Positions 8,878-22,831 of a DNA stretch of 55,045 nucleotides are shown here, in pieces; the stretch's first letter is position 1; every line of letters begins with the position of its first letter. This stretch comes from a virus. The DNA is taken from the IMG/VR virus record IMGVR_UViG_3300006790_001053, positions 1-55,045 of that record. The stretch is one strand, 5' to 3'. Below the pieces are notes generated by a model. It saw only the letters and a list, made by a program, of their open reading frames with translations. It had not been told where the DNA came from and did no database searches. The position numbers and the translations under genes were made by a program.

Positions 8878-8887
8878 TTTTTTTTAT

Positions 8888-9586
8888 TTACAGTATATTA
8901 TTTTTTAAAAAATTAAAAATGTGTTCTGACTTTTTGAGGTGAAAATCACCAGAAGCACCACCATCAGAATATTTTCTATCTAAATAACCATCTACATCTA
9001 AATGTTCTTTATAAACATCAATAAAAATAAAATTATTTTGTAAACAGTTATTTTTAATTAATTCATTGAAGTATTGATAATATTTTTTTCTTTCCTCATC
9101 CGAACCAATACAAGATACGTGACCAGCAATATCTAAATATTTTTTCTGTGTCGGTGGTATAATATTGTATACACAAATTTTCTTCAAATTTTTATTTAAT
9201 TTATTTATTTCTCTTTTTATAGCGTAAAAATAATCGTCAACAATTGGTTTAATGACTTCTTTATAAGATTTTTCATCATTAACATATTTGTGTATGTGAG
9301 ACCTACAATCTATTTCACCAAAACTAAAAATTAAAATATCACCGTCACATATATCAAAATTACCAATGTCAAACCTATCAAAATCTTGTTTATTAAAAGT
9401 GTAACACAAAGTACCAGCGAAAGAATATGATTTTATAAACATATTATCTACCCATTGTTCATTCAAATCTAACCCAGTATTTCCATCATAAGTTTGTTTG
9501 TTTGTATTAGAGTGAAAATCAATCCAACCATGAAGAGCATGACTATCACCAACGGTTACAATTTTATTATTAATTACTTTTTTCAT
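8888..9586 (-). CDS. SGNH/GDSL-type hydrolase-like protein
   Basis: 232 residues from ATG at 9586; a longer reading to 9730 would overlap the upstream gene by 128 bases and adds a non-conserved hydrophobic stretch, so the internal start, 16 bases after the upstream stop, is preferred. Block I is VGDSHALHGW near residue 11 (Ser nucleophile), a block III-like segment is FSFGEIDCRSH in the middle, and the C-terminal block V is SGDFHL (Asp and His). SGNH enzymes remove or transfer acyl groups, often O-acetyl on polysaccharides. The gene follows three GT32 glycosyltransferases, which suggests acyl tailoring of the same glycan. A related protein (GDSH, FGEPSCR, DPIH) is encoded at 43034-43690 in the second glycan operon. 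Confidence 0.75.
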   Translation of the reverse strand: MKKVINNKIVTVGDSHALHGWIDFHSNTNKQTYDGNTGLDLNEQWVDNMFIKSYSFAGTLCYTFNKQDFDRFDIGNFDICDGDILIFSFGEIDCRSHIHKYVNDEKSYKEVIKPIVDDYFYAIKREINKLNKNLKKICVYNIIPPTQKKYLDIAGHVSCIGSDEERKKYYQYFNELIKNNCLQNNFIFIDVYKEHLDVDGYLDRKYSDGGASGDFHLKKSEHIFNFLKNNIL

Positions 9587-9602
9587 TCTTTTTATTAAAG
9601 GG

Positions 9603-16349: not shown

Positions 16350-16376
16350 TAATATATTATTTAATGTTTAAAATAA

Positions 16377-16404
16377 ATATGGGGGTACTTTCATACCCCC
16401 ATAT
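16377..16404 (-). terminator. Intrinsic terminator after the repeat-fibre gene
   Basis: Perfect 11-bp stem (ATATGGGGGTA / TACCCCCATAT) with a 6-base loop, followed in the minus direction by TTATTTT. It lies 37 bases past the stop of the 1109-residue fibre gene and just before the late promoter of the next gene. A second perfect 7-bp inverted repeat, TATCTAA / TTAGATA (16424-16440), abuts the stop codon. Confidence 0.75.
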
Positions 16405-16440
16405 CGTTTCCTCAGAAATTAATTATCTAATAATTAGATA

Positions 16441-19400
16441 TTAATATCCGTAACCATTATAAGATATTTCTGACTGGTATCGTACACCATAAATAGTGTA
16501 TGTATCAGTAGTTCTACCGTTATAGTTTAATTTGATAGCACCTACTGGTTCTCCAGCAGCTGGTTTAACATCCAATGAAATTGTACTTGTAGCTATAGTC
16601 CAATCCACTCCCTCAACAAGAAGTTGACCGTTAAGGAATACTTGAATTGTATTTTGTTTCTGTTGATAATTCATTTGGAATCCTATCATATCACCATTTT
16701 GGTTAAGAGCTGGACTCATTACGTATGCCTTTTGAAGGTGATTGTCCTCTAATCTAGTTAAGTGATTAGTTACCTCAGAGAAAGAATCCATTGCTGTGAA
16801 ATCTGTATTAGAGATTATATCAGTAATTTTAGATTCTAAAGAAGTATCACCCTCTTCTCTTGCAGTAACTTCATCAGCTAAATCAGAAGTTAACGTATCG
16901 ATTGAAGCTTGTAACGTAGCGTCAGTAGCAATCCTTGCAGACTCTTCTGTAACTAACTTAGAATTAACATCAGCTAATTCAGCGTCATGTTTAACCTCTA
17001 AAGATGTTACAGCTGATTGACGAGCAGTAATCTCATCAGAGACTTGTAACTCAACATCAGTCTTCGCACTTAAGATAGCGTCACTCATGTCAGTTCTAAC
17101 CGCAGTGTCAGCAGCTTCTCTAGCAGCAACCTCATCAGCGATAGCTGTATTGATTGAGTTAACAGCCGCTAATAAAGCGTTGTCATTCTCTAAATCAACT
17201 TCCTCAACGAAAGATACTATCTCTTTGAATTGGTCTAGGTCGATTGAAGCTCCAGATAGGATAGCGTCAATTCTTCCTTTTTCAACGTCAATGTTAGACT
17301 GTAAAGTAGCGTCAGCAGCAACTCTTGAAGATGCTTCAGATGATACATCAGAGTTAATCTTAGCAGTTAATGCTTCGTCTCCAGCAACTCTTAAAGATGC
17401 TTCAGAAGATACATCAGCATCAATCTTAGTAGCTAAAGATGTGTCAGCAGCTACTCTAGCAGATGCCTCAGACGACATGTCTGAATCAATCTTAGCCTCT
17501 AAAGATGCGTCACCTGCTTCTCTAGCAACCACCTCGTTTGACATATCAGTGTCAATCTTAGTAGCTAAAGATGCGTCACCAGCAACTCTCGCAGATGCTT
17601 CAGAAGATACATCAGCATCAATCTTAGTCTCTAATGAAGCGTCATTAAATAATCTGAAATCAGTTTCATTTGATAAATCAGCTTCTAAAGATGCGTCAGC
17701 GGCTTCTCTAGCAGCTTTCTCAGTTGATACGTCAGCGTTAATTTTAGCCTCTAATAAAGAATCAGCAGCTTCTCTAGCAGACTTCTCAGATGACACATCA
17801 GTGTCAACCTTAGTAGCTAAAGATGCGTCACCAGCAACTCTTGCTGATGCTTCAGATGACATATCAGAATCTAACTTAGCTTCCAGTGAATTATCACCAG
17901 CAACTCTAGCAGATGCTTCAGATGACATATCAGCGTCCATCTTAGTCTCTAATGAGATATCAGCAGCTAATCTAGTAGATGCTTCAGATGATACGTCTGA
18001 ATTGATTTTGTTCTCTAATGAACCTTCAGCAGCAATCGCTCTCGCTTCCTCAGCGTCAACGTCAGCAATTCTTGAAGATACCTCATCAGCAACAACTTGT
18101 GCTAATGAAGCTTCAGCAGCTAATGCTCTTGCTTCCTCAGCGTTAACGTCAGCAACTCTATCAGCAATCTCGTCAGCTAATTTAGTATCTAAAGAACCTT
18201 CAGCAGCAATTGCTCTAGTTTCCTCAGCGTTAACGTCAGCGATTCTATCAGACACCTCATTGTTTAATGCTGTATCTAATGATAATTCAGCAGCTTCCGC
18301 TCTAGATACCTCAGCAGATAAGTTAGCGGCTTGGTTTAAGTCGTTAGCAACTCTGTCAGAGATTTCGTTATCCAAACTAGTTTGTAAAGCTTGGTCACCA
18401 GCAGTTCTATCAACAATCTCTTGTGAAATTGCCGCGTCATGTGCTTGGTCAGCAGCTAATCTAGAAGATGCTTCACCAGCTAATGCTGTGTCTAATGAAG
18501 ACTCAGCAGCTTCAGCTCTAGCAACCTCAGTTGATAATGATGCTTCTAATGAAGAATCACCAGCGATTCTTGAAGATACCTCAGAAGATACCGCTGCGTC
18601 ATTTGAAAGGACGTATGCTGCAAATGCTTGGTCGTTCTCAGTATCAACAGAGTTGATTAAAGTAACGATTTCAGCGAATGAATCAGCGTCAGCAGTTGAT
18701 GCACTTAAGATAGCGTCAATTCTTCCTTTCTCAACATCGATGTTAGACTGTAAAGTTCCATCAGCAGCTATTCTAGCAGCTTCCTCAACACCAATCTTAG
18801 TGTTTAAAGAACCTTCAGCAGCAATTGCTCTAGCTTCCTCAGCGTTAACATCCTCAATTCTGTTAGATGTCTCAGCCGCGATAGCGTCAGCGTTAGCAAC
18901 CTCAGCAACCTGTGCTCTAGAAGACTCAGAATCAATATTAGCTTGAAGTGTTGATACGTCAGCAATATGTTCTGCTTCTAAAGTGTCGATGTTATTCTGT
19001 AAGGTAGTGTCAGCAGCTAATCTAGAAGATGCTTCAGCAGCGTCTCCAGCGATTCTAGCAGATGCTTCAGCTGATACTTCACTATCAACTTTAGCGTCTA
19101 AAGTGTCGATGTTAGACTGTAAAGTAGCGTCAGCAGCTTGTCTAGCAGCAACTTCAGTTGACATTTCCTCATCATGAGCTACTTGTAAAGTACTCACTTT
19201 AGCGTCTAATGATGCGTCTCCAGCAATTCTGTTAGAGATTTCAGATGACATCTCACTGTCGTGTCTTGACTCAAAAGTGTCAATGTTAGACTGTAATTGA
19301 TTGTCAGCTGCTGCTCTAGCAGTTGCTTCAGCCGTATCAGCCGCTTCTCTTTCTGACTTCTCGTTAGATACATCAGCATTAACTTTTGTAGTTAATGATA

Positions 19401-19770
19401 AATCACCAGCTTCTCTAGCTGCTTTTTCAGTGGATACATCAGTGTCAATCTTTGACTCTAATGATGCGTCTCCAGCTACTCTGTCTGATGTTGCCGCATT
19501 ATACACAGAAGTTGTGTAAGCATACTGTGCGTCATCACCAGCAACTCTAGCAGATGCCTCAGACGACATGTCTGAATCAATCTTAGCTTCTAATGAATTA
19601 TCACCAGCAACTCTAAAAGATGCTTCAGCAAGGTCTGCTGCGTTTAAGTTTGCTAAATCGTCTACTAATCCAGGTAAATCTCCTTTTACGATACCACTTG
19701 GTTCAACGATTTGAGCGTTGTTTAAAATTAAATCTGACTGTCTATTTAATACTATTTTAGTATTTGCCAT
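16441..19770 (-). CDS. Fibre protein of 22-residue coiled-coil-like repeats
   Basis: 1109 residues. A short N-terminal head (MANTKIVLNRQSDLILNNAQ), which probably attaches to the virion, is followed by about 900 residues of repeats built on SSEASARVAGDASLATKID, which recur every 22 residues (two hendecads). Such a period suits a trimeric, nearly straight coiled coil. Two non-repeat modules with DVEKGRIDAILS and DxENDxA are duplicated near residues 340-390 and 805-860. The C-terminal 110 residues form a different domain with IQVFLNGQLLVEGVDWTI, like tail-fibre tips. The gene has its own hairpin terminator but no late motif directly upstream. Ala- and Asp-rich codon use makes it visibly less AT-rich than its neighbours. 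Fibre or whisker is inferred. Confidence 0.85.
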   Translation of the reverse strand: MANTKIVLNRQSDLILNNAQIVEPSGIVKGDLPGLVDDLANLNAADLAEASFRVAGDNSLEAKIDSDMSSEASARVAGDDAQYAYTTSVYNAATSDRVAGDASLESKIDTDVSTEKAAREAGDLSLTTKVNADVSNEKSEREAADTAEATARAAADNQLQSNIDTFESRHDSEMSSEISNRIAGDASLDAKVSTLQVAHDEEMSTEVAARQAADATLQSNIDTLDAKVDSEVSAEASARIAGDAAEASSRLAADTTLQNNIDTLEAEHIADVSTLQANIDSESSRAQVAEVANADAIAAETSNRIEDVNAEEARAIAAEGSLNTKIGVEEAARIAADGTLQSNIDVEKGRIDAILSASTADADSFAEIVTLINSVDTENDQAFAAYVLSNDAAVSSEVSSRIAGDSSLEASLSTEVARAEAAESSLDTALAGEASSRLAADQAHDAAISQEIVDRTAGDQALQTSLDNEISDRVANDLNQAANLSAEVSRAEAAELSLDTALNNEVSDRIADVNAEETRAIAAEGSLDTKLADEIADRVADVNAEEARALAAEASLAQVVADEVSSRIADVDAEEARAIAAEGSLENKINSDVSSEASTRLAADISLETKMDADMSSEASARVAGDNSLEAKLDSDMSSEASARVAGDASLATKVDTDVSSEKSAREAADSLLEAKINADVSTEKAAREAADASLEADLSNETDFRLFNDASLETKIDADVSSEASARVAGDASLATKIDTDMSNEVVAREAGDASLEAKIDSDMSSEASARVAADTSLATKIDADVSSEASLRVAGDEALTAKINSDVSSEASSRVAADATLQSNIDVEKGRIDAILSGASIDLDQFKEIVSFVEEVDLENDNALLAAVNSINTAIADEVAAREAADTAVRTDMSDAILSAKTDVELQVSDEITARQSAVTSLEVKHDAELADVNSKLVTEESARIATDATLQASIDTLTSDLADEVTAREEGDTSLESKITDIISNTDFTAMDSFSEVTNHLTRLEDNHLQKAYVMSPALNQNGDMIGFQMNYQQKQNTIQVFLNGQLLVEGVDWTIATSTISLDVKPAAGEPVGAIKLNYNGRTTDTYTIYGVRYQSEISYNGYGY

Positions 19771-19812
19771 AATTATTTTTTTTTAACAAATTATTAAACA
19801 CCCTCTTGTGTT

Positions 19813-19833
19813 AAAAATCCAATTTAGATTTTT
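19813..19833 (-). terminator. Possible weak terminator hairpin after gene 19913-20494
   Basis: Seven-bp AT-rich inverted repeat AAAAATC / GATTTTT with a 7-base loop in the 142-base gap between two minus-strand genes. A second short inverted repeat, AACAC / GTGTT, lies at 19797-19812. The rest of the gap is A/T tracts without an ORF. Confidence 0.35.
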
Positions 19834-19912: not shown

Positions 19913-20494
19913 TTACTTTTCTTCTGCAGTCCAACCATGTTTCTCACTCAACATCGTCCCAGTCTTAGAATATTCTACATCAGCTAATGGGTCGTAATTC
20001 TGAACATCTCTCGCCTCTATTTCAGTCACTTGGTCGATAAGTTTCATAGCGTTAGACTTTAATGTTTGACTATTCATTCCCTCCATTAAAGTTCCTCCTG
20101 CTACACTATTGATAAAATTTAATTTTGATTTATATATTTCTTCTATTAATTGACCTTCCTTATCTTGTGGAGCATTGTTTCTTTTGGTATTCAACTCAGC
20201 TCTTCTCACATTTAAATCAGATATTAAAGATTCAAACCTACTAGTCTCTTTAGTTGTTTCTTCAGTTAATTTAGAATTTAATCTTTTAACGGCTTTCTTA
20301 TTATCACCATCTAACTTAGAAATCTTATTAATAAGGACTTCTTGTTTTCTATGTGAATCTTCTAGTTCTCTTTTTCTGATGAGAACATCATCCATCACTT
20401 TATTAACATTTTTAACATCTTCCTCATACTGTTGTACCTCTGTAAGTTTTCTTTTTTCTGATACACTGTCTGATTTTTGACTGTATTTTTCCAT
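19913..20494 (-). CDS. Coiled-coil protein, probably virion-associated
   Basis: 193 residues, highly charged. Residues about 15-115 are almost uninterrupted heptad-like helix (KVMDDVLIRKRELEDSHRK, then LNSKLTEETTKETSRFESL), followed by a short less-charged segment FINSVAGGTLMEGMNS and an acidic tail. It shares its style, and the SxxxKRxL-type helices, with the N-terminal coiled coil of the next gene upstream (20529-22571), so the two could pair. No family recognised. It sits inside the block of fibre genes, with an A-rich leader and no late motif. Confidence 0.65.
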   Translation of the reverse strand: MEKYSQKSDSVSEKRKLTEVQQYEEDVKNVNKVMDDVLIRKRELEDSHRKQEVLINKISKLDGDNKKAVKRLNSKLTEETTKETSRFESLISDLNVRRAELNTKRNNAPQDKEGQLIEEIYKSKLNFINSVAGGTLMEGMNSQTLKSNAMKLIDQVTEIEARDVQNYDPLADVEYSKTGTMLSEKHGWTAEEK

Positions 20495-20528: not shown

Positions 20529-22571
20529 CTAATCTCCTCGAAAAGGAATTCGATAAGATATAGTATGTACTGTATCTTCATCACCTATAGGTGATGAAAG
20601 GGTTGTAGTCCAACTAATACTGTCATTACTAAATTGTCCTATTTGAATACCTACTCTATAGCTTTCTTCTCCTGTTTCCTCGTCTACAATTACCTCTTGT
20701 GCAACAAAAGCATTACCTGTTTTTGCCATTGGGTCTGGTGAAATTTTCCAGCCTCCAATTCTTAATTGGGTGACGATTGCAGGATTTTCTTTATCACCAT
20801 TTGATTCTCCAGCAGCAGTTGCATCAACAGCAAGACCGGACAACTTACCTCGTATAAAACTGTATGAGTATGTACCTCCATCAACAAGATGTACGGCTGT
20901 ATTTTCACCGTCTTCTTGAATTACTTCCCAAGTAACTGTCCATTGAGTGTCTTCACCACCTTCTTCTTCTGATGGTTCAGAGAAACTTAACATCTCGCCT
21001 TCAGGACCTTCTAAGAATGCTGTACCTTGAATTAATACTGATTCGTTAGAAGATCCGTCCCCGTTCGTTGTAACTTTGACAACATCAAGTCCTTCTACAC
21101 CTGTTCTAATTTGATATGAAGTAGCTGGTCCTGAAGTAAAGGTTAAGATATTTCCAAGTTTCGCAGTTTCTACAACTTCACCTGGTATTTTCGCTAAGCC
21201 ACCTTGCTGTTGTAAACCGTATGTACCTGTAGATTTAATATGGTTTTCTAACTCATCTCCACCATCTCCAGTGCTTCCACCTTCAAGTGAATTATACCAT
21301 GTAGAACTTACAGCATATACGTATCGGTCTTCCATAGCATACGGTGAATCAAATCCTTGAGACAACGTAATTTTGTAAACATTGCCCATAAATAGTGTAA
21401 ATTCTGGTGACATAAATTGTTCAAAATCTGATGCGCTTGTTTGTATTGACTGTGATTCTCCAAGTTCTGGATGAACAAAGTTAACTCTCCATACTCCATC
21501 ATTAACCAGTTTCAAGTAACCTCCTTTAGAATCTGGTTGAGAAGTCACAGCTCCGTCTGATTGAGGATTACTTTCCATATAAACTCCTCCTTCACTTTTA
21601 AATGATTGGAATGAAGCGATTGTTGAATCAATACTTCCATTAGTATCATATAGATAAACGTAATCTTCAAGAGGATGGTCTGATTTTAATCCATCTCCTG
21701 GTTTATCAGCATCTTCTCCAGAATCGTAAGTAATTGTAAATGTTTCAATTGCTTTTACAATATCAATATTAAAGGTCATTTCAGTACCTTCACCAAACCC
21801 ATCTACTGTTATCCACTCTGCCATTCCGTATCCTTCCCAATAAGGGTGTCTGAATTCAAAGGTACCAGGTTTTGCAGTATTTGGTCTTAACTGAAAATCT
21901 CCAAATACTAGATATCCATTCTCATTTGGAGAAAGATCTGTAAATGTTCTCTGAGATCCTTTAGTATTACTGTACGTGGCGTTGTACGAAGCTGGTGGAT
22001 CAAAGAAGTGACCAGTCGTAGGTTCTACAGCTGTACCACCATCCATTTCTGCAGCTTTTTTAGATTCTTCTAGAATTGTTTGATTTTCTTTTTTAACGTC
22101 TCTATTTAGTACCGATTCCTGCATTTTGGTTATTTCAGATCTTAATCTATTGTATTTATCTGTATAAGATTTAAAGCTAGATTTTTCAATCACCTCTACT
22201 GAAACAGTTTCAATAGAAGTAACACCGTTTTCTACTTCTAATAATTTATCGTTGATAACTGTTCTAATGATATCAGCTTTTGATACCTCAGCGTTTAATT
22301 CCGCTTCAATCTTTTCGATTTCAGAACTTCTACCACCATCTAAATTCTGAGCAGATTTACTTAAATTTGATTTTCTGTTGGTAAAGTCTTTATCTAATTC
22401 TTGTGATTTAATGAGAATATCTTTTTGTTTGTTTATTGTAGATTCCATATCATTAAGATATTCGTAGTATTGTATTGTCTCACTGTTGAAATCCTTTAAA
22501 AAGGTTTCCATTTGTGCGGGTGTAAGAATTTCCAAAGACCAATCCTTTTTGTTTTGTGTTCTCTCTTCCAC
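20529..22571 (-). CDS. Large virion protein: coiled-coil N-terminus plus beta-rich domains
   Basis: 680 residues starting at GTG 22571. Residues 1-180 form a charged coiled coil (ETIQYYEYLNDMESTINKQK, KDILIKSQELDKDFTNRK). From about residue 185 onward the sequence is beta-rich with few helices (ATGHFFDPPASYNATYS, TFEFRHPYWEGYGMAEW, VYLYDTNGSIDSTIASF) and ends in three related strand-rich segments. Base composition of the second half is clearly higher in G+C than its surroundings (some 60-base lines reach about 40 %). No family was recognised; a tail or decoration protein with carbohydrate-binding-like sandwiches is the best guess. A candidate RNA and two late-motif copies lie just upstream. 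Confidence 0.7.
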   Translation of the reverse strand: MEERTQNKKDWSLEILTPAQMETFLKDFNSETIQYYEYLNDMESTINKQKDILIKSQELDKDFTNRKSNLSKSAQNLDGGRSSEIEKIEAELNAEVSKADIIRTVINDKLLEVENGVTSIETVSVEVIEKSSFKSYTDKYNRLRSEITKMQESVLNRDVKKENQTILEESKKAAEMDGGTAVEPTTGHFFDPPASYNATYSNTKGSQRTFTDLSPNENGYLVFGDFQLRPNTAKPGTFEFRHPYWEGYGMAEWITVDGFGEGTEMTFNIDIVKAIETFTITYDSGEDADKPGDGLKSDHPLEDYVYLYDTNGSIDSTIASFQSFKSEGGVYMESNPQSDGAVTSQPDSKGGYLKLVNDGVWRVNFVHPELGESQSIQTSASDFEQFMSPEFTLFMGNVYKITLSQGFDSPYAMEDRYVYAVSSTWYNSLEGGSTGDGGDELENHIKSTGTYGLQQQGGLAKIPGEVVETAKLGNILTFTSGPATSYQIRTGVEGLDVVKVTTNGDGSSNESVLIQGTAFLEGPEGEMLSFSEPSEEEGGEDTQWTVTWEVIQEDGENTAVHLVDGGTYSYSFIRGKLSGLAVDATAAGESNGDKENPAIVTQLRIGGWKISPDPMAKTGNAFVAQEVIVDEETGEESYRVGIQIGQFSNDSISWTTTLSSPIGDEDTVHTISYRIPFRGD

Positions 22572-22645
22572 AATTATTTTTTTTATTAATTATTATTCTA
22601 TGCTCTTTCGCACAAAAAAATTAAACCCATAATTTTAGTTTTGAT

Positions 22646-22653
22646 TATAAATA
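22646..22653 (-). promoter_or_regulatory. Late-type promoter motif upstream of gene 20529-22571
   Basis: TATTTATA on the minus strand, 74 bases before the GTG at 22571. The leader would contain a short TGC/GCA hairpin closing a GAAA-containing loop around 22600-22612. Confidence 0.45.
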
Positions 22654-22667
22654 AAAATAGTCGTATT

Positions 22668-22698
22668 GGGTAGTTTTGAAGCTAAAACAAAATTACCC
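22668..22698. terminator. Stem-loop between genes 22832-23065 and 20529-22571
   Basis: Inverted repeat of 11 bases (GGGTAGTTTTG / CAAAATTACCC) with a 9-base loop. One arm position is G-T, i.e. a wobble pair in the plus-strand RNA and an A-C mismatch in the minus. T-rich sequence follows in the minus direction. Confidence 0.5.
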
Positions 22699-22784
22699 AC
22701 TAGATATTTTATATTAATTTAAATTGGAAATATATATTTATATATAGATATTAATATTTGAATGGTTTTCTCCCATTCTTTTTC

Positions 22785-22793
22785 TATAAATAT
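22785..22793 (-). promoter_or_regulatory. Late-type promoter motif at head of the 22.6-22.8 kb gap
   Basis: Exact ATATTTATA on the minus strand with no gene start within 200 bases; the nearest downstream feature is a perfect hairpin six bases away. Confidence 0.5.
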
Positions 22794-22831
22794 GTAGGTT
22801 TTCGGAAAAAGTCAAAAAATTTAAAAAAAAA

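Follow-up and report, generated by a model that had tools for sequence, protein, structure and literature searches.

Introduction

What does a stretch of 260 nt without an open reading frame (ORF) do between two genes of an uncultivated phage? The gap lies in an IMG/VR virus record of 55,045 bp, which was analysed whole (hereafter, the window), has a G+C content of 31% and encodes a phage DNA polymerase, a helicase and PhoH. It spans positions 22572-22831, exactly the 260 bases that a preliminary description of the sequence had given, and no other gap between clear ORFs is as large; an apparently bigger one at 8878-9602 is occupied by a 280-aa ORF. That description proposed that the gap encodes a small RNA or a regulatory leader. 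Here, we compared the gap with the corresponding loci of related phages and conclude, with a probability of about 0.68 for the explanation including its proposed mechanism, that it encodes the 5' UTR of a presumably late phage gene, a leader that is structured and conserved.

Results

Gene neighbourhood of the gap

All genes around the gap are encoded on the minus strand. Ahead of the gap, their order is a head-tail adaptor-like gene (weak match), a peptidase_G2/appendage gene, a LamG gene, a 166-aa gene and a 77-aa DUF5659 gene (PF18903; 22832..23065, Pfam E = 6.6e-16), the last of which is the upstream neighbour of the gap and served as synteny anchor. Past the gap, a 680-aa gene without a family match (20529..22571, with a GTG start at 22571) follows directly, then a 193-aa gene (19913-20494) and a 1109-aa tail-fibre-like gene (16441..19770, start at 19770), homologues of which come after the leader in relatives. 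By tblastn, the 1109-aa protein scored 54% to the relative L001 and about 30-35% to most other relatives. Its one family match was a weak one to phrog_13589 (unknown function), and the putative label 'fibre-like' rests on its repetitive sequence and the neighbouring genes. No relatives of the 680-aa protein were found in a viral contig scan, and none of the 77-aa anchor in a cultured-phage collection. A single 49-base weak match to a Bacillus phage was treated as chance. At the far end of the 1109-aa gene, 3' of its coding sequence, a strong 13-bp hairpin, GATATGGGGGTATGAAAGTACCCCCATATT, is followed by TATTTTAAAC (16376-16405, minus strand); this is likely the terminator of that gene's transcript and stands near the next start-proximal motif (16348).

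A promoter-like motif opens the leader

The preliminary description had listed a motif, a six-base spacing, a perfect hairpin, an A/T stretch, a long stem, T-rich sequence and a second motif, all of which are present on the minus strand. The span that it gave, 22655-22793, ends too early: two further hairpins (H3 and H4) follow, and A/T-rich sequence then takes the leader up to the start codon at 22571.

The leader opens with TATTTATA (M1; 22785..22792, minus strand), a promoter-like and presumably late motif that is the same in all 19 leaders compared. In the sense orientation, TATTTATA occurred in 10 of 53 upstream regions (60 nt) of the window, compared to 1.1 in shuffles, and in the reverse orientation in 2 of 53 start regions. 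The copies in the upstream regions of the window mostly end 10-20 nt ahead of the start codon. Among 137 genes from related loci it was found 13 times near starts and twice farther off, and TATTTATT and TATTTATC were likewise enriched. From this enrichment we infer that TATTTATA behaves as a promoter element. It looks similar to the T4 late promoter, TATAAATA, but is not identical to it, and TATAAATA itself was not enriched (sense orientation, 2 of 53 start regions vs 1.6 in shuffles). The phage literature that we searched held no mention of TATTTATA as a late promoter. Genome-wide and in the related loci, the start-proximal motif can be written as TATTTAT(A/T/C); it mostly stops 10-20 nt short of the start codon, so near that 5' UTRs would be very short.

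The leader is found in related phages ahead of one homologous gene

Loci were gathered in viral contigs with the DUF5659 protein as anchor, giving 30 and then 79. A leader with a first hairpin of the same type (H1) was present in 18 other loci (the near-copies L002 and L003 both counted), between DUF5659 and the homologue of the 1109-aa gene. The whole architecture was seen in 17 of these 18, L176 showing little beyond H1. In the other DUF5659 loci the leader was shorter and different, or DUF5659 was followed by another gene. On a tree of DUF5659 the long leader was clustered, with 4 changes compared to 15.7 when shuffled, on a tree that rests on 77 columns and has many unresolved forks. Two further searches added little: a pattern scan with GGTGTGAAAGAACAY returned mostly unrelated contigs and was set aside, and a search seeded with the fibre gene's N-terminus retrieved mostly loci found before.

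The element occurs once per genome, ahead of the same tail-fibre-like gene in the relatives. One significant match per genome was obtained in 11 of 12 leader-bearing records, and no match with E below 0.5 in 14 short-leader records.

Two observations on the remaining loci stand apart from this leader. Short-leader relatives (L173, L187, L195, L199, L202, L206, L241 and others) carry another conserved leader, GGGAAACATTCTGGTTCA / GGAGACATTCTGGTTCACCC, directly after the DUF5659 stop and ahead of the same fibre-like gene, which may be a second leader RNA family. In other phages (L015-L022, L205, L211, L219, L221 and L226), DUF5659 stands ahead of a conserved peptidase-like gene that carries the motif EVKHAYVDWCIFKN, and its association with the fibre gene is thus not obligatory.

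H1 and H2 are conserved by compensatory changes

In the window, six bases (GAAAAA) separate M1 from H1, a perfect 6-bp hairpin, GAATGG-GAGAAAA-CCATTC (22760..22778, minus strand); across leaders, H1 starts about 6-11 nt past the inferred promoter motif. H1 exceeded chance in the window (p = 0.002 against shuffles), and the combined p over 17 leaders was 7e-12, a value that is too small since related sequences were treated as independent. It formed in 19 of 19 leaders despite differing sequences, with variants such as GAATGG/CCATTC, GUCGCA/UGCGAC, ACUGG/CCAGU, UUUUACC/GGUAAAA and GUGGAU/AUCCAC, and all five modelled pairs showed two-sided compensatory changes. Downstream of H1 lie a conserved unpaired linker (M2; 22747..22756, minus strand), which reads UAUUAAUAUC (UAUUUAUAU in some relatives) and is present in 18 of 19 leaders, and a conserved A/U linker, AUUUAAAUU (M4; 22716..22724, minus strand), recognised in the leader alignments. 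A pairing of the promoter motif with M2 (GATATT/AATATC), judged by eye, was absent in relatives and was rejected. The long stem-loop H2 (22667..22699, minus strand; UGGGUA.UUUUG / CAAAA.UACCCA, one mismatch) had p = 0.02 in the window and a combined p of 4e-9, again too small as kinship was ignored, and 9 of 9 modelled pairs with two-sided changes.

A covariance model built on 8 leaders found 8 more, and these 16 were used for pair statistics. Two-sided changes were observed at 14 of 14 model pairs, 86.8% of cells were paired compared to 55.7% in shuffles, and the covariation score was 0.715 vs 0.218. Sliding the alignment by 1-3 columns collapsed pairing in every case. A later alignment (A6), which also contains 7 low-scoring rows that are probably chance matches, gave similar figures (overall about 87-90% paired vs about 55%). 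Model R2 recognised two leaders that its training set did not contain: L231 at E = 0.009, and the window at E = 0.014 in the joint search and 0.0034 when searched alone. The R1 and R2 model alignments were fitted to structure, and the sequences share ancestry. Covariation of both stems in related phages had been named beforehand as the check on the proposal, and its outcome was strongly positive. Sequence comparison shows that H1 and H2 form on the sense strand.

H3 and H4 carry the structure to the start codon

H3 is a weak A/U stem, AAAAUUA / UAAUUUU (22617..22636, minus strand), and H4 a hairpin, GUGC-GAAAGA-GCAU (22600..22613, minus strand), with a conserved A-rich loop and located about 27 nt before the start codon. 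In the window alone H3 was not significant (p = 0.56); across relatives its combined p was 1e-4, which is too small as kinship was ignored. MAFFT alone misaligns H3 and H4, and arm-swap tests were used for this reason. With hand-chosen arms, the own arms of H3 paired at 89%, compared to 48% when the 3' arms were swapped, and none of 5000 shuffles was as high; for H4, arms likewise hand-chosen, the values were 97% vs 82%, also with 0 of 5000 shuffles as high. The H4 loop reads AAAGA, AACGA or a near variant. The H4 stem is GUGC/GCAU before 22571 and takes the inverted form, ACAC/GUGU, ahead of 19770 in the window and in L001. The distance from the end of H4 to the start codon is 25-32 nt in 16 of 17 leaders and 46 nt in L231, and the final 25-32 nt ahead of the start are A/T-rich and lie outside the hairpins. 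As sequence comparison shows, H3 and H4 have been kept as paired elements.

The leader is split in the window

Only in the window is the leader separated from the fibre-like gene by the 680-aa and 193-aa genes. The 1109-aa gene is immediately preceded by a second H3-H4 module, AAAAAUC..GAUUUUU followed by AACAC-AAGAGG-GUGUU (19797..19833, minus strand), which is almost identical to the L001 leader at its 3' end, and the L001 leader directly precedes the homologous gene. This match implies that the two extra genes either came to interrupt the ancestral order or disappeared from L001, and that H3-H4 stayed with the gene. The split is our best hint that H3-H4 may serve translation of the fibre-like gene and M1-H1-H2 the start of the transcript.

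Leader or free-standing RNA

The same modules can be read differently, as a free-standing small RNA of about 130 nt (H1-H2 plus a T-rich tail) with its own late promoter, the promoter of the next gene being the motif at 22646. Such a reading is consistent with a 5' edge marked by the promoter-like motif, with the good support for two stems and with the T-rich sequence after H2 in the window, as well as with the separation of M1-H1-H2 from the fibre gene in the window. On the sense strand of the window there is, however, no intrinsic terminator. Weak sense-strand terminator calls in L009 and L012 have the tails GGTTAATATT, GATTATTAAT and AATTATTAAT, which are not U-runs, and a conserved sense-strand hairpin with a U-run to end such an RNA was not found in the window, L009 or L012, with L001 showing one on the antisense strand only. 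The second copy of TATTTATA (M5; 22646..22653, minus strand), which the preliminary description had assigned to the next gene, does not fit that role either. It is 75 nt from the start codon, too far for a promoter of the kind described above, and the site reads TATTTATC, TATTAATC or TATTTGTA in the relatives' alignments, within the leader; for these reasons it was not taken as a separate promoter and is probably a conserved leader linker. H3 and H4, moreover, covary too, and their distance to the start codon is kept. We consider the small RNA unlikely, and the feature is probably not free-standing; a processed small RNA is a less likely possibility than the leader.

A 5' mRNA leader is favoured because H3 and H4 reach to a near-fixed distance from the start codon and because the same gene always follows; covarying sense-strand stems, together with a consistent place before one homologous gene in the relatives, are what would be expected of such a leader. 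Of the two possibilities raised at the outset, the regulatory leader gained from H3/H4, position and covariation, and the small RNA lost ground for want of a sense-strand terminator.

Leader or DNA element

Hairpins could also act in DNA, as a replication origin, a packaging or recombination site or an array bound by a protein at TATTTAT-like motifs, with any RNA incidental. The TATTTAT-like motifs M1-M5 do recur in one orientation with H1 to H3 between them, and the element is single-copy in each genome. Folding z-scores of the whole leader were alike on both strands and did not tell the strands apart. Wobble pairs, in contrast, were unequal: in 18 true leaders, 18 G-U pairs were counted on the sense strand compared to 6 A-C pairs (the antisense wobble), which favours an RNA read in the direction of the gene. 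A role in DNA also sits poorly with the nearly constant distance from H4 to the start codon and with an H3-H4 module that remains with the gene after the leader is split, and we regard it as improbable.

Leader or terminator

H1 as a transcription terminator, be it one read from the opposite strand or one serving the DUF5659 gene upstream, is very unlikely. A T-run does adjoin H1 on the plus strand of the window (GAATGG..CCATTCTTTTTC) and, in L001, on the antisense strand, but other relatives do not keep it, no nearby genes lie in that direction, and the one terminator found in the window scan compares with a chance expectation of 0.8. In addition, the sense-strand tail in relatives is AATTATTAATATC, and H1 is always 3' of the promoter-like motif. 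A plus-strand reading of the locus as a whole, with TATAAATA as promoter and H1 as terminator, was rejected on the absence of genes that way, the unconserved T-run and the fact that the sense motif is TATTTATA. That a short ORF or leader peptide (attenuation) accounts for the conservation is hardly credible: several leaders have ATG-TAT/CGT-CAG.. at M5, but L002, L014, L023, L026 and others have no ATG there, frames and lengths vary, and substitutions track base pairing.

Discussion

Most likely, the leader governs both how stable its gene's mRNA is and how that mRNA is translated. As a whole it measures roughly 200 bases and has up to four short hairpins. Transcription would start just past TATTTATA at 22785, giving an mRNA that opens with H1 and continues through A/U-rich single-stranded linkers, H2, H3 and H4 to the coding sequence about 27 nt later. 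H1, at or near the 5' end, may shield a long-lived late message from 5'-end-dependent decay, by analogy with known stabilising stems, while H2 and H3 would ensure that the linkers, and the zone where ribosomes land, stay open. H4, whose A-rich loop lies some 25-45 nt ahead of the start codon, is a candidate operator or recognition hairpin, again by analogy, and its partner, an RNA-binding protein of the phage or the ribosome, could tune translation. A bolder version, which we hold to be rather unlikely, is that of a new class of modular phage mRNA element. In it, repeated TATTTAT-like late promoter motifs, several with a hairpin after them (M1-H1, M4-H2, M5-H3), would give staggered stem-capped messages, and for late translation in Bacteroidetes a ribosome modified by the phage, or an RNA-binding protein of the phage, would recognise the H4 that they share.

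Structured 5' UTRs of phage genes are already known as a kind, of which this leader would be a new member. A search of the whole window against Rfam release 15, the manA, wcaG and PhotoRC models included, gave no matches at the gathering threshold, and the leader regions of L012 and the window gave only chance matches, far below threshold; no tRNA or tmRNA was found. No description of the leader was present in the open-access literature searched, coverage of which was incomplete. The closest counterparts in kind are manA, wcaG and PhotoRC-II, structured 5' UTR candidates mostly from marine metagenomes and also from T4-like cyanophages (PMC2864571), which are likewise phage-borne structured RNAs in 5' UTRs of phage genes found by covariation. 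Their sequence and structure differ from those of the leader, and their genes belong to sugar metabolism, exopolysaccharide and photosynthesis, whereas here a virion-type protein and a presumably Bacteroidetes host are concerned.

Individual hairpins have counterparts as well. In T4 gene 43, the translational operator is a conserved-loop hairpin that stands about 40 nt ahead of the start codon (PMC3014915); H4 resembles this operator in both design and position. The loops differ (AAAGA/AACGA compared to UAAC in T4), as do the stems, and H4 precedes a fibre-like gene and, unlike the operator, does not overlap the start region. As summarised in PMC3997798, stem-loops at the 5' terminus stabilise messages, an example being the ompA 5' UTR (Emory et al. 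1992, Arnold et al. 1998); H1 is alike in its place at or near the inferred 5' end of the RNA and in its conserved stem of free sequence, but the decay enzymes of Bacteroidetes differ, and the start site that puts H1 there is a predicted one. In T4 e, soc and 49, an inhibitory helix in the leader masks the ribosome site when transcripts are early and encloses the late promoter (PMC3014915). Our leader similarly combines hairpins ahead of a phage gene with presumed late promoters, but its hairpins are all 3' of the first promoter motif and its last 25-32 nt lie outside them.

The hosts of the about 18 related phages are presumed to be Bacteroidetes, and one short-leader relative is on a contig binned to a Flavobacteriaceae MAG. 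Ribosomes of Bacteroidetes do not use Shine-Dalgarno sites. In Flavobacterium johnsoniae, initiation relies not on such sites but on low structure and on adenines that precede the start (PMC6847099), and large phages that encode bS21 are predicted to infect freshwater Bacteroidetes (PMC9723584). We found bS21 in 7 of 12 leader-bearing records (those behind L001, L009, L010, L011, L012, L176 and, weakly, L005) compared to 4 of 14 short-leader records, all of which are possibly fragments, and none was seen in the window record. As short-leader records carry bS21 too, a specific link between the leader and bS21 is so far unsupported.

The leader belongs to large uncultivated phages, several of which encode bS21. 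Its fixed architecture, the set distance from hairpin to start codon and the split that nature has made in the window offer a testable handle on phage late translation in Bacteroidetes.
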